From Turicibacter bilis (GTDB lineage: Bacteria; Bacillota_I; Bacilli_A; MOL361; Turicibacteraceae), in assembly GCF_024499055.1 (NCBI RefSeq), contig NZ_CP071249.1, forward strand, positions 2,349,001 through 2,413,000: DNA of 64,000 nt, in the 5' to 3' direction. The notes below the pieces were generated by a model. That model saw only the letters and a list, made by a program, of their open reading frames with translations, made no database searches and was not told the origin of the DNA. Positions 2,131 to 57,739 of the stretch are shown here, piece by piece. Both the position numbers and the translations under genes were made by a program. Each line of letters opens with the position of its first letter. Positions within the stretch are counted from its first letter, which is position 1.

Positions 2131-2160
2131 TATTACGTACGAGAATTTTTTGGTTGAGGT

Positions 2161-2205
2161 GGGTTCCCTGCCTTGCGAAGCAATTATCCTCTATTGGTAG
2201 GGTAT
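2161..2205 (+). repeat. SHE hairpin element, 45-bp variant
   Basis: Short hairpin element beginning GGGTTCCCTG, with inner stem TTGC-GAA-GCAA and 3' block TATTGGTAGGGTAT. It directly precedes the tandem array. The inner stem sequence differs from the array units but the fold is conserved. Confidence 0.8.
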
Positions 2206-2632
2206 GGGTCCCCTGCGCTAAGTAGTGAGTTTACGAACTCTTAGCTATCCTCCACTGGTAGGGTATGGGTCCCCTGCGCTAAGTAGTGAGTTTACGAACT
2301 CTTAGCTATCCTCCACTGGTAGGGTATGGGTCCCCTGCGCTAAGTAGTGAGTTTACGAACTCTTAGCTATCCTCCACTGGTAGGGTATGGGTCCCCTGCG
2401 CTAAGTAGTGAGTTTACGAACTCTTAGCTATCCTCCACTGGTAGGGTATGGGTCCCCTGCGCTAAGTAGTGAGTTTACGAACTCTTAGCTATCCTCCACT
2501 GGTAGGGTATGGGTCCCCTGCGCTAAGTAGTGAGTTTACGAACTCTTAGCTATCCTCCACTGGTAGGGTATGGGTCCCCTGCGCTAAGTAGTGAGTTTAC
2601 GAACTCTTAGCTATCCTCCACTGGTAGGGTAT
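2206..2632 (+). repeat. Tandem array of seven identical 61-bp SHE units
   Basis: Units start at 2206, 2267, 2328, 2389, 2450, 2511 and 2572, with no spacers and no visible differences. Each unit starts GGGTCCCCTG, has an inner stem GCTAAG/CTTAGC with GAGTT/AACTC inside it, and ends CACTGGTAGGGTAT. Seven identical copies suggest recent amplification by slippage or unequal recombination. Alternatively, repeated insertion occurred at the ATGG that each unit regenerates. No open reading frame or protein homology is seen. Confidence 0.95.
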
Positions 2633-2860
2633 GGGGCGTTCCTATTAGTATACACGTTAGGGAATAGGTCAAATAGGTTAGTAAATAGCCATTTATCTGA
2701 TAAATAGATAGTCATATTTATGATATAATACTTTTAGTATTACTATTTAAAGTGATTAATGTTAAAAAGGTATGTCACAAAATTGAAATAAATGACTTTA
2801 ACAGTTCATAATAAAATAAAACCATTATCTCAAATCAGATAATAATACTGGAGTGTAAAA

Positions 2861-3163: not shown

Positions 3164-3195
3164 ACATAATAAATTTCCGTAGTTCCTAATATACA

Positions 3196-3245
3196 AAAAC
3201 CATTATCTCAAATCAGATTTAATCTGAACTCAGATAATGGTTTTT
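3196..3245. terminator. Palindromic terminator, ssrA-downstream type
   Basis: AACCATTATCTCAAATCAGA and its inverted partner TCTGAACTCAGATAATGG, followed by a T run. Near-identical copies at 48784-48835 and 57296-57350 precede ssrA-end sequences, so this is part of a duplicated island-end block. Confidence 0.8.
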
Positions 3246-3299
3246 ATTTTGCCCAATTTCTCTGTAATAGTTGTCGATGCAAGCCTGTGCTTGTTAGGG

Positions 3300-3393
3300 G
3301 ATATTATGGTGGAGATGGCTTCCCTGGCAGATTGTTAAAGGAAATCTAATCATCCTTTGTAGAGTAGGGGGCGTTCTGGTTAGTATCCACGTC
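3300..3393 (+). repeat. ssrA-end-like (att-like) repeat with SHE insertion
   Basis: ATATTATGGTGGAGATGG at about 3301-3318 matches the 3' end and downstream flank of ssrA. After a SHE-like insertion at about 3319-3369 (TTCCCTGGCAGATTG ... GTAGAGTAGGGG), the repeat continues with CGTTCTGGTTAGTATCC and ACGTC. The roughly 130 bases that follow are shared with 6890-7000. From 3394 to 3614 no gene is seen. Confidence 0.65.
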
Positions 3394-4463: not shown

Positions 4464-4805
4464 TTATCTTCGTCCTAAGATCAGCGCAGCTTGCTTTAAA
4501 ATATCATTTTCCATTCCCTAGCAGTGGAGGATTTATGCTTCGCATGCTAGGTGACCCATTTCTAATTGCTTAACTTTTTTACGAAGTTGGATTAGCTCCT
4601 GTTCTTCTTCTGAGCGGTTATCTTTCTCCTTAAAAGAACCGGTAGAAGTTGACTGTTTAATCCATTTATCGAGTAAAGACGATGAGAGATCGTATTCACG
4701 AACAATATTACATTTACGTTTACCATTTAAATAAAGTTGGACTAATTGGTTTTTAAATTCATCCGTATATGTACGGCGAGTTCTACGAGTTTTAGTTTGG
4801 GTCAT
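4464..4805 (-). pseudogene. IS3 orfA interrupted by a SHE element
   Basis: The first 84 or so residues encode the usual HTH and leucine zipper (RRTYTDEFKNQLVQLYLNGK, then ELIQLRKKVKQLEM). The reading then enters the SHE insertion, shifts frame and stops after MGHLACEA. Removing the 46-bp insert rejoins KQLEM to ENDILKQAALILGRR, the expected OrfA end, which stops at 4464 just before the orfB start. The gene is therefore a recent casualty of the insertion. Confidence 0.9.
4511..4556 (-). repeat. SHE hairpin element inside IS3 orfA
   Basis: Read on the minus strand, the insert starts GTCACCTAGCATGC, forms an inner stem ATGC-GAA-GCAT and ends ATCCTCCACTGCTAGGG then AATGG. The outer arms CCTAGCA and TGCTAGG are perfect complements. 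It is flanked by CCAT at 4511-4514 and 4557-4560 (ATGG in the gene's direction), consistent with a 4-bp target duplication. Confidence 0.9.
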
Positions 4806-6371: not shown

Positions 6372-6443
6372 ACGTACGAGAATTTTATGGTGGATATGGG
6401 ATCCCTGCCTTGCGAAGCAAGTATCTTCCACTGGTAAGGTATG
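6372..6443 (+). repeat. att-like repeat ending in a SHE element
   Basis: ATTACGTACGAGAATTTTAT then GGTGGATATGG resembles the ssrA-end-like repeat. From about 6400 a SHE element follows (ATCCCTGCC, inner stem TTGC-GAA-GCAA, CCACTGGTAAGGTAT). It joins directly to the radC 3' tail. The arrangement indicates recombination between an att-like copy and a SHE-interrupted radC. Confidence 0.7.
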
Positions 6444-6659: not shown

Positions 6660-6770
6660 AACAAAAAAACATATCTAAAATCAGAATCAACTTCTGTAAT
6701 TAGATATGGGTTCCCTGCGCTAAGTAGTGAGGTCACGAACTCTTAGCTATCCTCCACTAGTAGGGTCATT
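6660..6770 (+). terminator. Terminator hairpin split by a SHE element
   Basis: ACATATCTAA and TTAGATATG form the same terminator stem as at 2075-2130. A SHE element (about 6708-6767: TTCCCTGCGCTAAG, inner stem GCTAAG/CTTAGC, ATCCTCCACTAGTAGGG) interrupts it just before the T run. Confidence 0.7.
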
Positions 6771-6839: not shown

Positions 6840-6985
6840 AAATATTGCGTAAGAGAATTTTTTGGTGGAGATGGGGCGTACCGGTTAGTATCCACGTCTC
6901 ACAATCAAGCGATTAGAGGATATAACTATTGTATTATCCTTATAATATAGATTGTGAGTGAAAAATAATTTATAATGTAAGTAAA
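6840..6985 (+). repeat. ssrA-end-like (att-like) repeat, uninterrupted
   Basis: TTTTTTGGTGGAGATGGGG then CGTACCGGTTAGTATCC and ACGTC: the same core as at 48875-48914, with no SHE insertion. The following stretch (AAGCGATTAGAGG, then a TATAATATAGATTGTGAGT region) is shared with 3393-3480. It probably holds the promoter of the operon that starts at 7047. Confidence 0.7.
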
Positions 6986-16749: not shown

Positions 16750-17256
16750 ATGTCGAATGTCGCAAAACGTATTAATATTGTATCGATTAAAATGATAAAG
16801 GAAGCTAGCTTCCTTTATCAAACACGTACGATTTCATCACCTAAGGATGCCTATGAAATGATTAAAGAACAACTAGAAGGATTGGATCGGGAGCAATTCA
16901 TTATTGCTTGTTTGAATACAAAGAATGAACCAACTAATATCACAGTGGTATCAGTTGGTTCATTAAATAAGGCTATCGTTCATCCAAGGGAAGTCTTTAA
17001 AACAGCAATCCTATCGAATGCAGCGAGTATTATGGCATTTCATAATCATCCATCAGGAGAAATAATGCCATCACAACAAGATATTCAATTAACCAACCGC
17101 TTATATGAAGCGGGCGAGTTACTCGGTATCAAGTTGTTAGATCATCTCATTATCGGAGATGGGTCCCCTGGCAGTGAGCAAAGCGAACAATCCTCCGCTG
17201 CTAGGGTATGGAACATTTACATCATTAAAAGAAAAAGGTTATTTATAAGGAGCTAA
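16750..17256 (+). CDS. RadC-family JAB-domain protein with altered C-terminus
   Basis: 168 residues. The JAB/MPN domain runs from about residue 35, with the metal ligands in SIMAFHNHPSGEIMPSQQD and an upstream glutamate. The native C-terminus (LIIGDG then TFTSLKEKGYL) is interrupted by a 49-bp SHE element. Translation therefore runs through the element and ends about 30 residues later in foreign sequence. The core and metal ligands remain, so the product could still fold. It lacks the N-terminal HhH region of long RadC proteins, as usual for mobile-element copies. GGAGG at 16738-16742 fits the start. Confidence 0.8.
   Translation: MSNVAKRINIVSIKMIKEASFLYQTRTISSPKDAYEMIKEQLEGLDREQFIIACLNTKNEPTNITVVSVGSLNKAIVHPREVFKTAILSNAASIMAFHNHPSGEIMPSQQDIQLTNRLYEAGELLGIKLLDHLIIGDGSPGSEQSEQSSAARVWNIYIIKRKRLFIRS
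17163..17211 (+). repeat. SHE hairpin element inside radC
   Basis: 49-bp insert. The outer arms CCCTGGCAG and CTGCTAGGG pair with one G-T wobble, and the middle is GTGAGCAAAGCGAAC. It follows GGAGATGG and ends TATGG, so ATGG is present on both sides. Removing it restores GDG-TFTSLKEKGYL, in line with the uninterrupted copy at 1920-1965. The length of 49 shifts the frame. Confidence 0.9.
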
Positions 17257-28325: not shown

Positions 28326-28445
28326 CAAAATATAAAATATAATGTTGAATTTAAATCGATGATTGTTGAACTTTATAAAACTGGACGGAAAGTCTTAGAA
28401 CTTAGTCGTGAATATGGTGTATCAGAAGTAACGATTTATAAATGG

Positions 28446-28490
28446 GCCCCTGCCCTGCGTTAGCAGGTATCCACCATTAGTAGGGAATAG
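28446..28490 (+). repeat. SHE hairpin element inside IS3 orfA
   Basis: 45-bp insert after AAATGG: GCCCCTG, inner stem CCTGC-GTTA-GCAGG, then ATCCACCATTAGTAGGG and AATAG. Deleting it restores TAT AAA TGG ATT AAA CAG (YKWIKQ). The right ATGG has become ATAG. Confidence 0.9.
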
Positions 28491-28664: not shown

Positions 28665-28716
28665 CCACTTTCCCTAGCAGTTGGGGATAGATTGCCGTTA
28701 GCAATCGCCAGGTGAC
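28665..28716 (-). repeat. SHE hairpin element inside IS3 orfB
   Basis: 52-bp insert in minus orientation. Read on that strand it is GTCACCTGGC, inner stem GATTGC-TAACG-GCAATC, then TATCCCCAACTGCTAGGG. Flanks are CCAC at 28665 and CCAT at 28717. Removing it restores GCT ATG ACC ATT CAC GAG (AMTIHE). Confidence 0.9.
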
Positions 28717-29612
28717 CCATTCACGAGAAAGTAACTCAATCTGAATTATGTCAGTTTATTGATCAACATCATCAAGAACATGATATTAAGCAACTTTGTG
28801 AGGTCTTAAGTGTCCCAAGAAGCACTTATTATCAATCGAAGCATCAAACTGAATCTAAGTGGAAACGTGAAAATCACCAACTGCTTGAACGAATTAAGAA
28901 GATTTATTTTGAAAGTAGCCGTCGATATGGTGCTATTAAGGTACACCGTCAATTGATTAAAGAAGGATTCTCTGTTAGCTTGAAACGTGTTCAGCGACTA
29001 ATGAAATCAGGCGGTTTAGCTTCGATTATTCAAAAGAAATATACCCCGTATAAACAATCTAAGGAACTTGTTTTAGAACGTGATAAAATTCTAGAACAGG
29101 ATTTTTCGACGACTTCAATTAATCAAAAATGGGTATCCGATATGACTTATATTTACGTTCAAAAAGAAGGTTGGTGCTACTTAACTTCAGTGATGGATTT
29201 ACATTCAAAGAAAATGATTGGTTATCATTTTTCTAAGCAAATGACAACAGACATTATTGTTCAAGCTTTAAAGAATGCTTATGTTTCTCAAAGACCCAAA
29301 GACAAGGTTATACTTCATACTGATTTAGGGACACAGTATACCAGCGAAGATTTTAAAAACTTAACCTCAGAACTTAATGTCGTTCAATCTTTTAGCCGTA
29401 AGGGATGCCCTTACGATAATGCTTGTATTGAATCATTCCATGCCACCTTAAAGAAAGAAGAAGTGTATCAAACCACATACGTGACGTTTGAACAGGCTAG
29501 AATGGCCTTATTTCAATATATTGAAGGCTGGTATAATCGCAAAAGAATTCATGGTTCCATTAATTATTTAACACCAGAAGAATGTGAGCAACTTGCACGA
29601 CAAATTGCTTAA

Positions 29613-32444: not shown

Positions 32445-33203
32445 TAAGTGCTGCAAAGTAAAAAATATTGAAGTTTTAATGAAAAAATCATTTATTATAT
32501 AGATCATAACGCCCTAGCGGCACTCGTATAAACGAAACTAAACGGCTTCTTGAATGTTAGATTCTAATTTTACCCTAATAGATTAAAAAGGAGACAAGAT
32601 GAGTCTTTCATTTGTATGCCTTTATTCCTCATTTTAAAGATTTACATCAGGGAGGTTTTTTCAAAGCTGCCTTCGCACAGGGGGTTTGCATTGATTTTCA
32701 TAGTAGAAACAGATAAGTATTCTACATCTAAGATAGTCTATAAAAAGCAATGATGACTTGACGTACCAAGACATTCTATCGTTCAGAACTCACATTTTAT
32801 TCTCGAAGAAAATGGATCTACCGCTAGTAGGGTTTAAAAAAATTGTTTGAAGAAAATTTATTTGGACTTATATATTTTCCTTCCCCAACGAAAGAGTGAT
32901 GAACTCATACACTGTCTTAAGGTCATTGTTTCATCTTGGGTAATCCTCTGGTACTTATTGTATGTTTTGCCATAGTAAAAAAATCATCACGTAAATAGTT
33001 GTGATGATTTTTTTATTTTATGTTTTACGTTTAAGGAAAATTGGATTTCATTGCTAACATGGATTTTATGACTTTATGTGGTAATTCAAAATCTCCTTCT
33101 TCATATTTAAATCAATAATTAACCATTTTTTAACAGTTTGTTAACAAAAAATGGTGATGATAGTGATAAAGTAGAGCTATAAACGATTAAGGAGGATATT
33201 GAG
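32445..33203. other. Gene-free region upstream of the ECF operon
   Basis: No credible gene in about 760 bases. At 32808-32833 ATGGATCTACCGCTAGTAGGG is a decayed SHE-like 3' block. A T-run hairpin lies at 32977-33015. TAACAGTTTGTTAACAAAAA near 33128-33147 and a TGATAAAGTAG stretch just before 33180 probably belong to the promoter of the ECF operon. Confidence 0.45.
32977..33017. terminator. Terminator hairpin
   Basis: AAAAAAATCATCAC pairs with GTGATGATTTTTTT. No intact gene precedes it, so it may terminate transcription from a lost gene. Confidence 0.75.
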
Positions 33204-48783: not shown

Positions 48784-48836
48784 AAAAAACCATTATCTCA
48801 AATCAGATTTAATCTGAACTCAGATAATGGTTTTTG
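48784..48836. terminator. Palindromic terminator, ssrA-downstream type
   Basis: The palindrome is essentially the same as at 3196 and 57296 (CATTATCTCAAATCAGATTT paired with its inverted partner). It closes the recombinase module. Confidence 0.85.
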
Positions 48837-48849
48837 TTTTGTTCATTTT

Positions 48850-48916
48850 TCTGTAACAGTTGCGGACGTGGATATTATGGTGGAGATGGGGCGTTCCGGT
48901 TAGTATCCACGTCCCA
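48850..48916 (+). repeat. ssrA-3'-end copy forming a hairpin, candidate attachment site
   Basis: CTGTAACAGTTG, GGACGTGGATATTATGG and TGGAGATGGGG match the true ssrA 3' end and its downstream flank (57367-57406). Instead of the rest of ssrA, the right side is CGTTCCGGTTAG and TATCCACGTCC. GGACGTGGATA (48864-48874) and TATCCACGTCC (48904-48914) are perfect inverted repeats. It lies 0.8 kb behind the serine recombinase. Confidence 0.75.
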
Positions 48917-57255: not shown

Positions 57256-57295
57256 AGAATATATATTATCTTAATATTGTTAGTATTAGAAAAAA

Positions 57296-57350
57296 ATAAA
57301 AAAACCATTATCTCAAATCAGATTTAATCTGAACTCAGATAATGGTTTTT
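57296..57350. terminator. Palindromic terminator next to ssrA
   Basis: Same palindrome as at 3196 and 48784 (ACCATTATCTCAAATCAGAT with inverted partner). It could serve both ssrA (minus strand) and the 56731 gene. This is probably the original from which the island-end copies derive. Confidence 0.85.
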
Positions 57351-57393
57351 ATTTGGATTAATTTTCCTGTAACAGTTGTGGACGTGGATATTA

Positions 57394-57739
57394 TGGTGGA
57401 GATGGGGGGAGTCGAACCCCCGTCCTAAAACACCGACCACTTAACTTTCTACAAGTTTAGTCTCCTATTAAATTTAACGGGTGACTGGTTAGGCGACACA
57501 CCTGTCAGACCGCGAGTTTGATCATCTCTTCTAGGCTATTCAAACGGCACAGACTAGCGTATCCCACTACAGTGAGCCTAGTCATTCAACATGGGCGATT
57601 GAATGGTAGGCAGCTACGTTATATTAAGCAGCTAATTGTAAGTTTGTTTTTCCGGTTATTAAAACCTCGACCTTTTAACGTGGGTTAACACGACTTGCTT
57701 ATTAAGCTCAAATGCCCCAGTCGAATCCGTAACATCCCC
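57394..57739 (-). ncRNA. ssrA: Transfer-messenger RNA (tmRNA, SsrA)
   Basis: One-piece tmRNA of about 346 nt that rescues stalled ribosomes. The 5' end on the minus strand is GGGGATGTTACGGATTCGAC then TGGGG. The 3' end has the T-arm GGGGGTTCGACTCCCCC followed by CATCTCCACCA, with CCA encoded; GGGGATG and CATCTCC form the acceptor stem. The tag reading frame at 57624-57653 encodes GKTNLQLAA and a stop, ending in the usual Leu-Ala-Ala degradation signal. Its 3' end is a common integration target, and copies of it occur elsewhere in this window. Confidence 0.96.

Follow-up and report, generated by a model that had tools for sequence, protein, structure and literature searches.

How did seven identical copies of a 61-bp unit come to lie in tandem in the Turicibacter bilis chromosome? 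The question is raised by positions 2206-2632 of the stretch of DNA analysed here, which is 64,000 nucleotides long (the window) and comes from a genome in a single contig of 2,786,784 bases (2.79 Mb) with 99.98% completeness. A first-pass annotation had named the unit SHE and offered serial insertion or slippage as the origin of the array. The name is not established in the literature searched, and no Turicibacter repeats of such a kind were found there.

The array interrupts an ssrA att-site remnant

The single array that TRF reported in the window spans 2185-2635, with a period of 61, 7.4 copies, 99% matches and a score of 888. Letter-by-letter comparison by script resolved it into seven 61-bp units with zero differences across 427 bp, exactly the run that the first-pass annotation had described. 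The units and their surroundings are arranged as follows, where ↓ marks an insertion point.

2148-2160, forward strand: left half of an att-site remnant of the ssrA (tmRNA) 3′ end, where insertion took place; the empty site reads TTTTGGTGGAGAT↓GGGGCG, as shown by aligning it to the empty sites at 6861 and 48876, to other loci and to other species
2161-2205, forward strand: 45-bp hairpin element, GGGTTCCC...GGTAGGGTAT, probably the first to insert; a solo unit of its size class lies at the sister site 6398-6442
2206-2632, forward strand: tandem run of seven 61-bp hairpin elements without differences, GGGTCCCCTGCG...GGTAGGGTAT, from TRF and script
2633-2655, forward strand: right half of the att remnant, GGGGCGTTCCTATTAGTATACAC, from alignment with the empty copies

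The 45-bp unit directly precedes the seven 61-bp units. It had been taken for a diverged unit of the same kind, a view that does not hold: it represents a distinct size class, found solo at 6398-6442, and is not a decayed 61-bp unit. Leaving out 472 bp (45 + 7 × 61) rejoins the flanks GAGGT and GGGGCG into the empty form with one base off (GAGGT versus GAGAT), and because of this we read the array as an insertion rather than as ancestral sequence. The zero differences in 427 bp suggest that the amplification to seven units was recent.

The first 49 kb hold four ssrA att remnants besides the array site, two of them empty, one with a 45-bp unit and one with a decayed 49-type unit. Together with the intact gene, they were located by alignment.

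3299-3377, forward strand: second att remnant, TATGGTGGAGATGG, occupied by a degenerate (decayed) 49-type element at about 3317-3367
6398-6442, forward strand: third att remnant, TATGGTGGATAT, with a solo 45-bp element
6848-6893, forward strand: empty att remnant, ...GAGAATTTTTTGGTGGAGATGGGGCGTACCGGTTAGTATCC
48866-48912, forward strand: empty att remnant, ...TATGGTGGAGATGGGGCGTTCCGGTTAGTATCCACG
57394-57739, reverse strand: intact ssrA (tmRNA) gene (also an Rfam tmRNA match), its 3′ end matching the att remnants, with no element inserted

The empty sites at 6861 and 48876 read TGGTGGAGAT↓GGGGCG. The att site of the array is also empty at 1.535 Mb of the source genome and in the species G003 and G004, and a single 50-type element occupies the matching site in G001. 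An Rfam search of the window gave no family above the gathering score except tmRNA, and the hairpin elements matched none. Remnants of the ssrA 3′ end recur in the window at 2148, 3305, 6386, 6861, 48876 and 57392. They are presumably what integrating islands leave behind, and their repetition suggests that several islands integrated successively at the tmRNA gene. A terminator-like palindrome, AAACCATTATCTCA...TGAGATAATGGTTT, is repeated near the remnants (2803-2840, 3181-3277, 48785-48862 and 57293-57382) and has matches in all genus genomes.

The units belong to a family of small hairpin elements

The extent of the family was assessed with several searches. A 16-base core, allowing up to 3 mismatches, gave 154 matches in the genome compared with 9 in a reversed control. 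The custom scanner on which the unit counts depend gave 145 matches, against 7 in a shuffled and 9 in a reversed control. With a covariance model built from an alignment of 35 units, 146 matches were obtained in the source genome at E≤1, about 140 of which reached E<0.01. The model matched all five genus genomes searched and none of 55 other relatives, three of which are of the same family as Turicibacter. Across 84,980 species, each represented by one genome, the specific composite pattern was matched solely in Turicibacter sp. UBA7094. No match was found among the phages, plasmids or viral contigs searched, and a phage or plasmid origin of the family was rejected on this ground. So far, the hairpin family appears to be confined to Turicibacter.

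Units are 43-68 bp long, mostly 45, 49, 51, 54, 59-62 or 66 bp. All share a left end GGGTCNCCTRSC and a right end TCCTCNNYTNSTAGGG, usually followed by (A/T)AT, with individual departures. Their layout is GGGTCNCCTRSC, an inner hairpin, (N)TCCTCCACT, GSTAGGG and (A/T)AT. The hairpin thus has two parts, the outer arms CCTRS and STAGG pairing with each other. In 168 unique units, pair 4 of this outer stem is GT in 84, AT in 75, GC in 8 and AC in 1, and pair 5 is CG in 87, GC in 68 and TA in 6. Because G.T (or G.U) is accepted at pair 4 while A.C occurs only once, only one of the two strands, whether DNA or RNA, is the folding strand. The inner hairpin varies in sequence by subtype with its complementarity kept, and a GAA triloop is its commonest closure (C(GAA)G in 39 and T(GAA)A in 16). 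Across 28 ungapped 49-type units, 98.4% of the cells in the two helices were paired, and the covariation score was 0.360 compared with 0.123 after shuffling (0/500 shuffles); slid versions of the two-helix pairing came nowhere near the real score. The single-strand folding energy of the units was unexceptional compared with shuffles. The 45-bp class contains d(GCGAAGC), known as an unusually stable DNA hairpin; this hints at DNA but is no proof. GGGTCACCT and TCCTCC presumably resemble the 3′ end of 16S rRNA.

Elements insert behind RT and bring their own target

Element contexts were examined in part of the source genome and in parts of four others. Apart from the att remnants, the window contains the following insertions.

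4513-4557, reverse strand: 45-bp element inside an IS3-type orfA (HTH_Tnp_1), sense to orfA; the reading frame ends in the insert
6708-6765, forward strand: solo element of the 61-bp size class, right-end TAT missing
17161-17209, forward strand: 49-bp element near the 3′ end of the radC gene
28443-28488, forward strand: 45-type element inside an IS3-type orfA; the equivalent site is filled in G004
28669-28718, reverse strand: 50-type element lying antisense close to the start of an IS3-type orfB; G001 has it too

Insertions in IS genes (IS3, IS66, ISL3) occur in both orientations, mostly sense. The first of the IS3 orfA insertions was found in four IS copies (window 4513-4805; G000 at 502k, 1.2476 Mb and 2.3478 Mb), two of them with a full-length orfB frame. 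The IS3 element thus moved after being hit by the hairpin element. At 439.5 kb of G000, an element lies in a partial SSB-like reading frame whose Pfam SSB match is below the cut-off.

Insertion takes place 3′ of RT, usually at RT↓G, and the element supplies its own (A/T)AT↓G right end. RT stands immediately to the left at 47 of 69 deduplicated sites, compared with a background of 15.8% (p=3e-22, a guide value, since sites common to copies of one IS were only partly collapsed and independence is overstated). For many solo copies, the empty site was recovered by BLAST of the joined flanks. The best one is an IS66 copy at 98% identity (CGATG↓ACG), where GTTTCGATGACGC became GTTTCGATG-element-AATGACGC. 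Another was recovered at 93%, and further ones in IS3, ISL3 and a MITE. In the MITE, GCCGTG↓CAAGG became CCGTG-element-AATG↓CAAGG; a second IS66 site reads AGTG↓GGATG when empty and AGTG...AATG↓GGG when filled; the ISL3 site reads CAG↓GGCC when empty and GAG...AATG↓GG when filled. None of the three shows a duplication. Because the right end stays AATG even at sites whose left triplet differs from ATG, the right-hand AT is carried by the element, and insertion there involves no target-site duplication. A few junctions fit poorly: the element at 6708-6765 lacks the right AT, and an insertion in IS3 orfB at 2348741 has an odd base.

The first-pass annotation had proposed that the element ends in ATGG, the sequence into which it inserts. 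The resemblance of the end to the target stands, and the empty sites demonstrate insertion; the target itself is RT before G, usually ATG or GTG and not strictly ATGG, and the unit is framed as GGG...TAT. Its further proposal, that each insertion creates a fresh target at its own edge, is supported by the empty sites, because the element brings a right end of RT↓G type, and arrays of mixed units fit it.

Hairpin elements also occur within a MITE family of about 130 bp, which is TA-flanked and reads TATATAGAAACAGA...CTGGACTTATATA. Dozens of copies are present in the regions read, one of them at about 32690-32880 of the window. Hairpin elements, 0 to 8 per copy, occupy a single internal site and all point the same way. 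This site, CCAG↓CTAAAAG, is not RT↓G, and because of this the elements there may be built-in fixed modules rather than insertions. An IS110-family element (right end ...TTTTCATAGTAGAA), found at about 32740 of the window and at three other loci, appears to insert in the terminal repeat at the end of the MITE.

Arrays start by insertion and grow by duplication

Joints between units inside arrays are AATG (32), CTTG (20), TATG (17) and rarer forms. Mixed (heterotypic) arrays of differing size classes are common, and these show serial insertion. Other arrays carry repeats of a higher order. The array at 1.2294 Mb repeats a 103-bp dimer with one difference (102/103 identical), and the one at 1.1662 Mb repeats a 169-bp trimer at 161/170; in G003, three occurrences of a trimer of about 177 bp precede a run of 54-bp units. 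In the runs of identical units (6 × 51, 5 × 59 and 7 × 61), variants stand at one edge only, and in the first two the divergent units are at the 3′ end. The higher-order repeats, and the identical runs of units absent elsewhere, demonstrate local tandem duplication.

In genome-wide searches with the core pattern and the covariance model, the exact 61-bp array unit was seen only within the array. The sole other copy of the 61-bp size class that we noted, at 6708, is 93.5% identical to it. Because the exact unit is found only in the array, local duplication is favoured for the seven copies, and our conclusion is that a single insertion, behind the 45-bp unit, was multiplied by tandem duplication. 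Arrays in this family are thus built by both insertion and duplication; for the identical run, which the first-pass annotation had left open between serial insertion and slippage, it is duplication that the array-only unit indicates.

We propose the following order of events. The 45-bp element would have inserted first, into the ssrA att-site remnant. Its AT together with the G of the target would recreate the insertion target, at which a second element can land, and the 61-bp element would then have landed at this AT↓G at the right end of the 45-bp element. A single unit would have been amplified to seven through tandem duplication, by replication slippage or unequal exchange, which cannot be told apart here; the last six units would owe their presence to this process and not to repeated self-insertion. 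For the whole account, in which non-autonomous, very small hairpin elements of Turicibacter insert at RT↓G, make their own target and, in this case, were followed by duplication of the 61-bp unit, we estimate a probability of about 0.78.

Two other origins of the run were considered. Serial insertion alone, in which the seven units arrived successively, each on the AT↓G of the last and each copied from its neighbour by the mobilising enzyme, draws on the insertion at unit edges that heterotypic arrays require, on the regeneration of the target by the element end and on a resident IS200 in G003 that likewise stands head-to-tail behind its own right end. However, a diverse pool of elements should yield mixed arrays, no second locus with the exact unit was found in the genome, and the dimer and trimer repeats need duplication of whole blocks, so that this origin is rather improbable. 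That the seven-fold identity is an assembly artefact is more improbable still: the array exceeds short-read length, but the genome is one nearly complete contig, and homotypic arrays with other units are also present in G003 and G004.

With their many empty sites, these loci form a natural record of how an array starts, by insertion behind a self-made target, and of how it grows, by block duplication. The arrays are also possible length markers for strain typing.

Candidate mobilising activities

No mobilising gene was found. In the regions examined, there was also no larger autonomous relative with matching ends; lone left and right ends were listed, none of them convincingly flanking a gene. 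Mobility would involve a single-stranded DNA intermediate handled by a trans-acting enzyme. Turicibacter is a common gut genus, and the mobiliser of such tiny elements could be found by genetics.

A possible though doubtful candidate is single-strand transposition of the IS200/IS605 kind, with a Y1 (HUH) transposase that would recognise the hairpin of the top strand and place the element 3′ of its target, as for PATE or REP. It is compatible with the best explanation given above. The lack of target duplication, the short left target, the right end resembling the target and the strand-specific hairpin with GAA-type triloops would all suit it; Y1 genes are present in four of the five genus genomes, and the resident IS200 shares the arrangement of inserting behind its own end. 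On the other hand, the resident IS200 copies target T-rich TTTTTATT sites and have unrelated ends, the complete genome G004 carries the family and lacks a Y1 gene, and the elements show no significant bias relative to replication (44 lagging, 30 leading; origin near 1.87 Mb by GC skew). As the mobiliser, the resident IS200 is disfavoured by its differing ends and targets, and the resident IS110 by its differing ends and its targeting of the MITE end instead. At 1512 kb of G003, two IS200 copies stand head-to-tail; the right end of IS200, TTTTTATT, is identical to its target, a parallel self-target logic.

A more speculative reading, to which we give somewhat less credence, is that the family consists of single-stranded DNA hairpins of 43-68 bp moved by an enzyme other than a known Y1 transposase or a reverse transcriptase; the right end being the element's own target, arrays would form automatically by end-to-end insertion. 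If this is true, the elements are among the smallest mobile elements known and naturally self-stacking. Mobility at the RNA level through reverse transcription, for example by a group II intron reverse transcriptase, is very unlikely. The G.U-tolerant and A.C-intolerant structure suits RNA as well as single-stranded DNA, and one array cluster has group II intron domains nearby, but no RVT_1 match was obtained in G001 and G003, complete genomes in which the family is present. Programmed translational bypassing, in which the ribosome would skip the insert as at mitochondrial byps, has a negligible chance of being the general role and is rejected because insertions occur in both orientations: many inserts are sense within reading frames, with codons often matched at both edges, but three are antisense in transposase genes (IS66 tnpB, IS66 transposase and IS3 orfB), not all lengths are multiples of three, and the hosts are mainly IS genes or remnants and the one SSB-like partial frame, not intact core genes.

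Comparison with known systems

The elements differ from classical MITEs in two respects. At the MITE, IS66 and ISL3 sites, GTG or GAG on the left faces AATG on the right, so that there is no target-site duplication. Also, the inverted stem starts only 6 bases in, and with the G.T pair in half of the units and its A.C mirror only once, the terminal repeats are asymmetric. Ends common to the resident IS110, as expected of IS110-mobilised elements, were not found.

Mitochondrial byp elements are short inserts in reading frames with matched edges (PMC5009743). The Turicibacter elements are byp-like in being short in-frame inserts with matched edges, but they lie in both orientations, have mixed lengths and occur mainly in IS genes. 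The BOX element of Streptococcus pneumoniae is built as boxA-boxB(n)-boxC, with a variable number of short tandem hairpin modules in mid-repeat (PMC3049150). The MITE described above resembles it in having tandem modules that vary in number (0 to 8) and are enclosed by two fixed outer modules; this likeness is one of layout. Unlike in BOX, the Turicibacter module is also found solo outside the MITE, in IS genes, att remnants and radC, with insertion proven by empty sites.

Very small mobile repeats are reportedly also found in cyanobacteria, as the small dispersed repeats that Elhai is said to have described in 2008; the likeness is in size and mobility, and the host differs. REP and REPIN elements are mobilised by RAYT (Y1) transposases (PMC3116915, PMC3733652). 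They too are tiny non-autonomous hairpin repeats with single-strand structure that form clusters and tandem arrays. In contrast to them, the Turicibacter elements lack the constant GTAG/CGTC tag, having GGTAGG or GCTAGG as the arm in a ratio of about 87:68, and they lie within genes, at a defined RT↓G site of which they carry their own copy at the right end. A Y1 transposase is also not present in every carrier genome (none in G004), which leaves any tie to RAYT putative. With IS200/IS605 and the miniatures derived from it, the elements share the absence of target duplication, insertion 3′ of a short target and strand-specific hairpins. They differ in having no transposase, in consisting of one composite hairpin of 43-68 bp and in having no ends in common with the resident Y1 element. 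The Turicibacter elements thus work like IS200/IS605 in their logic, and are putative members of that family at most.
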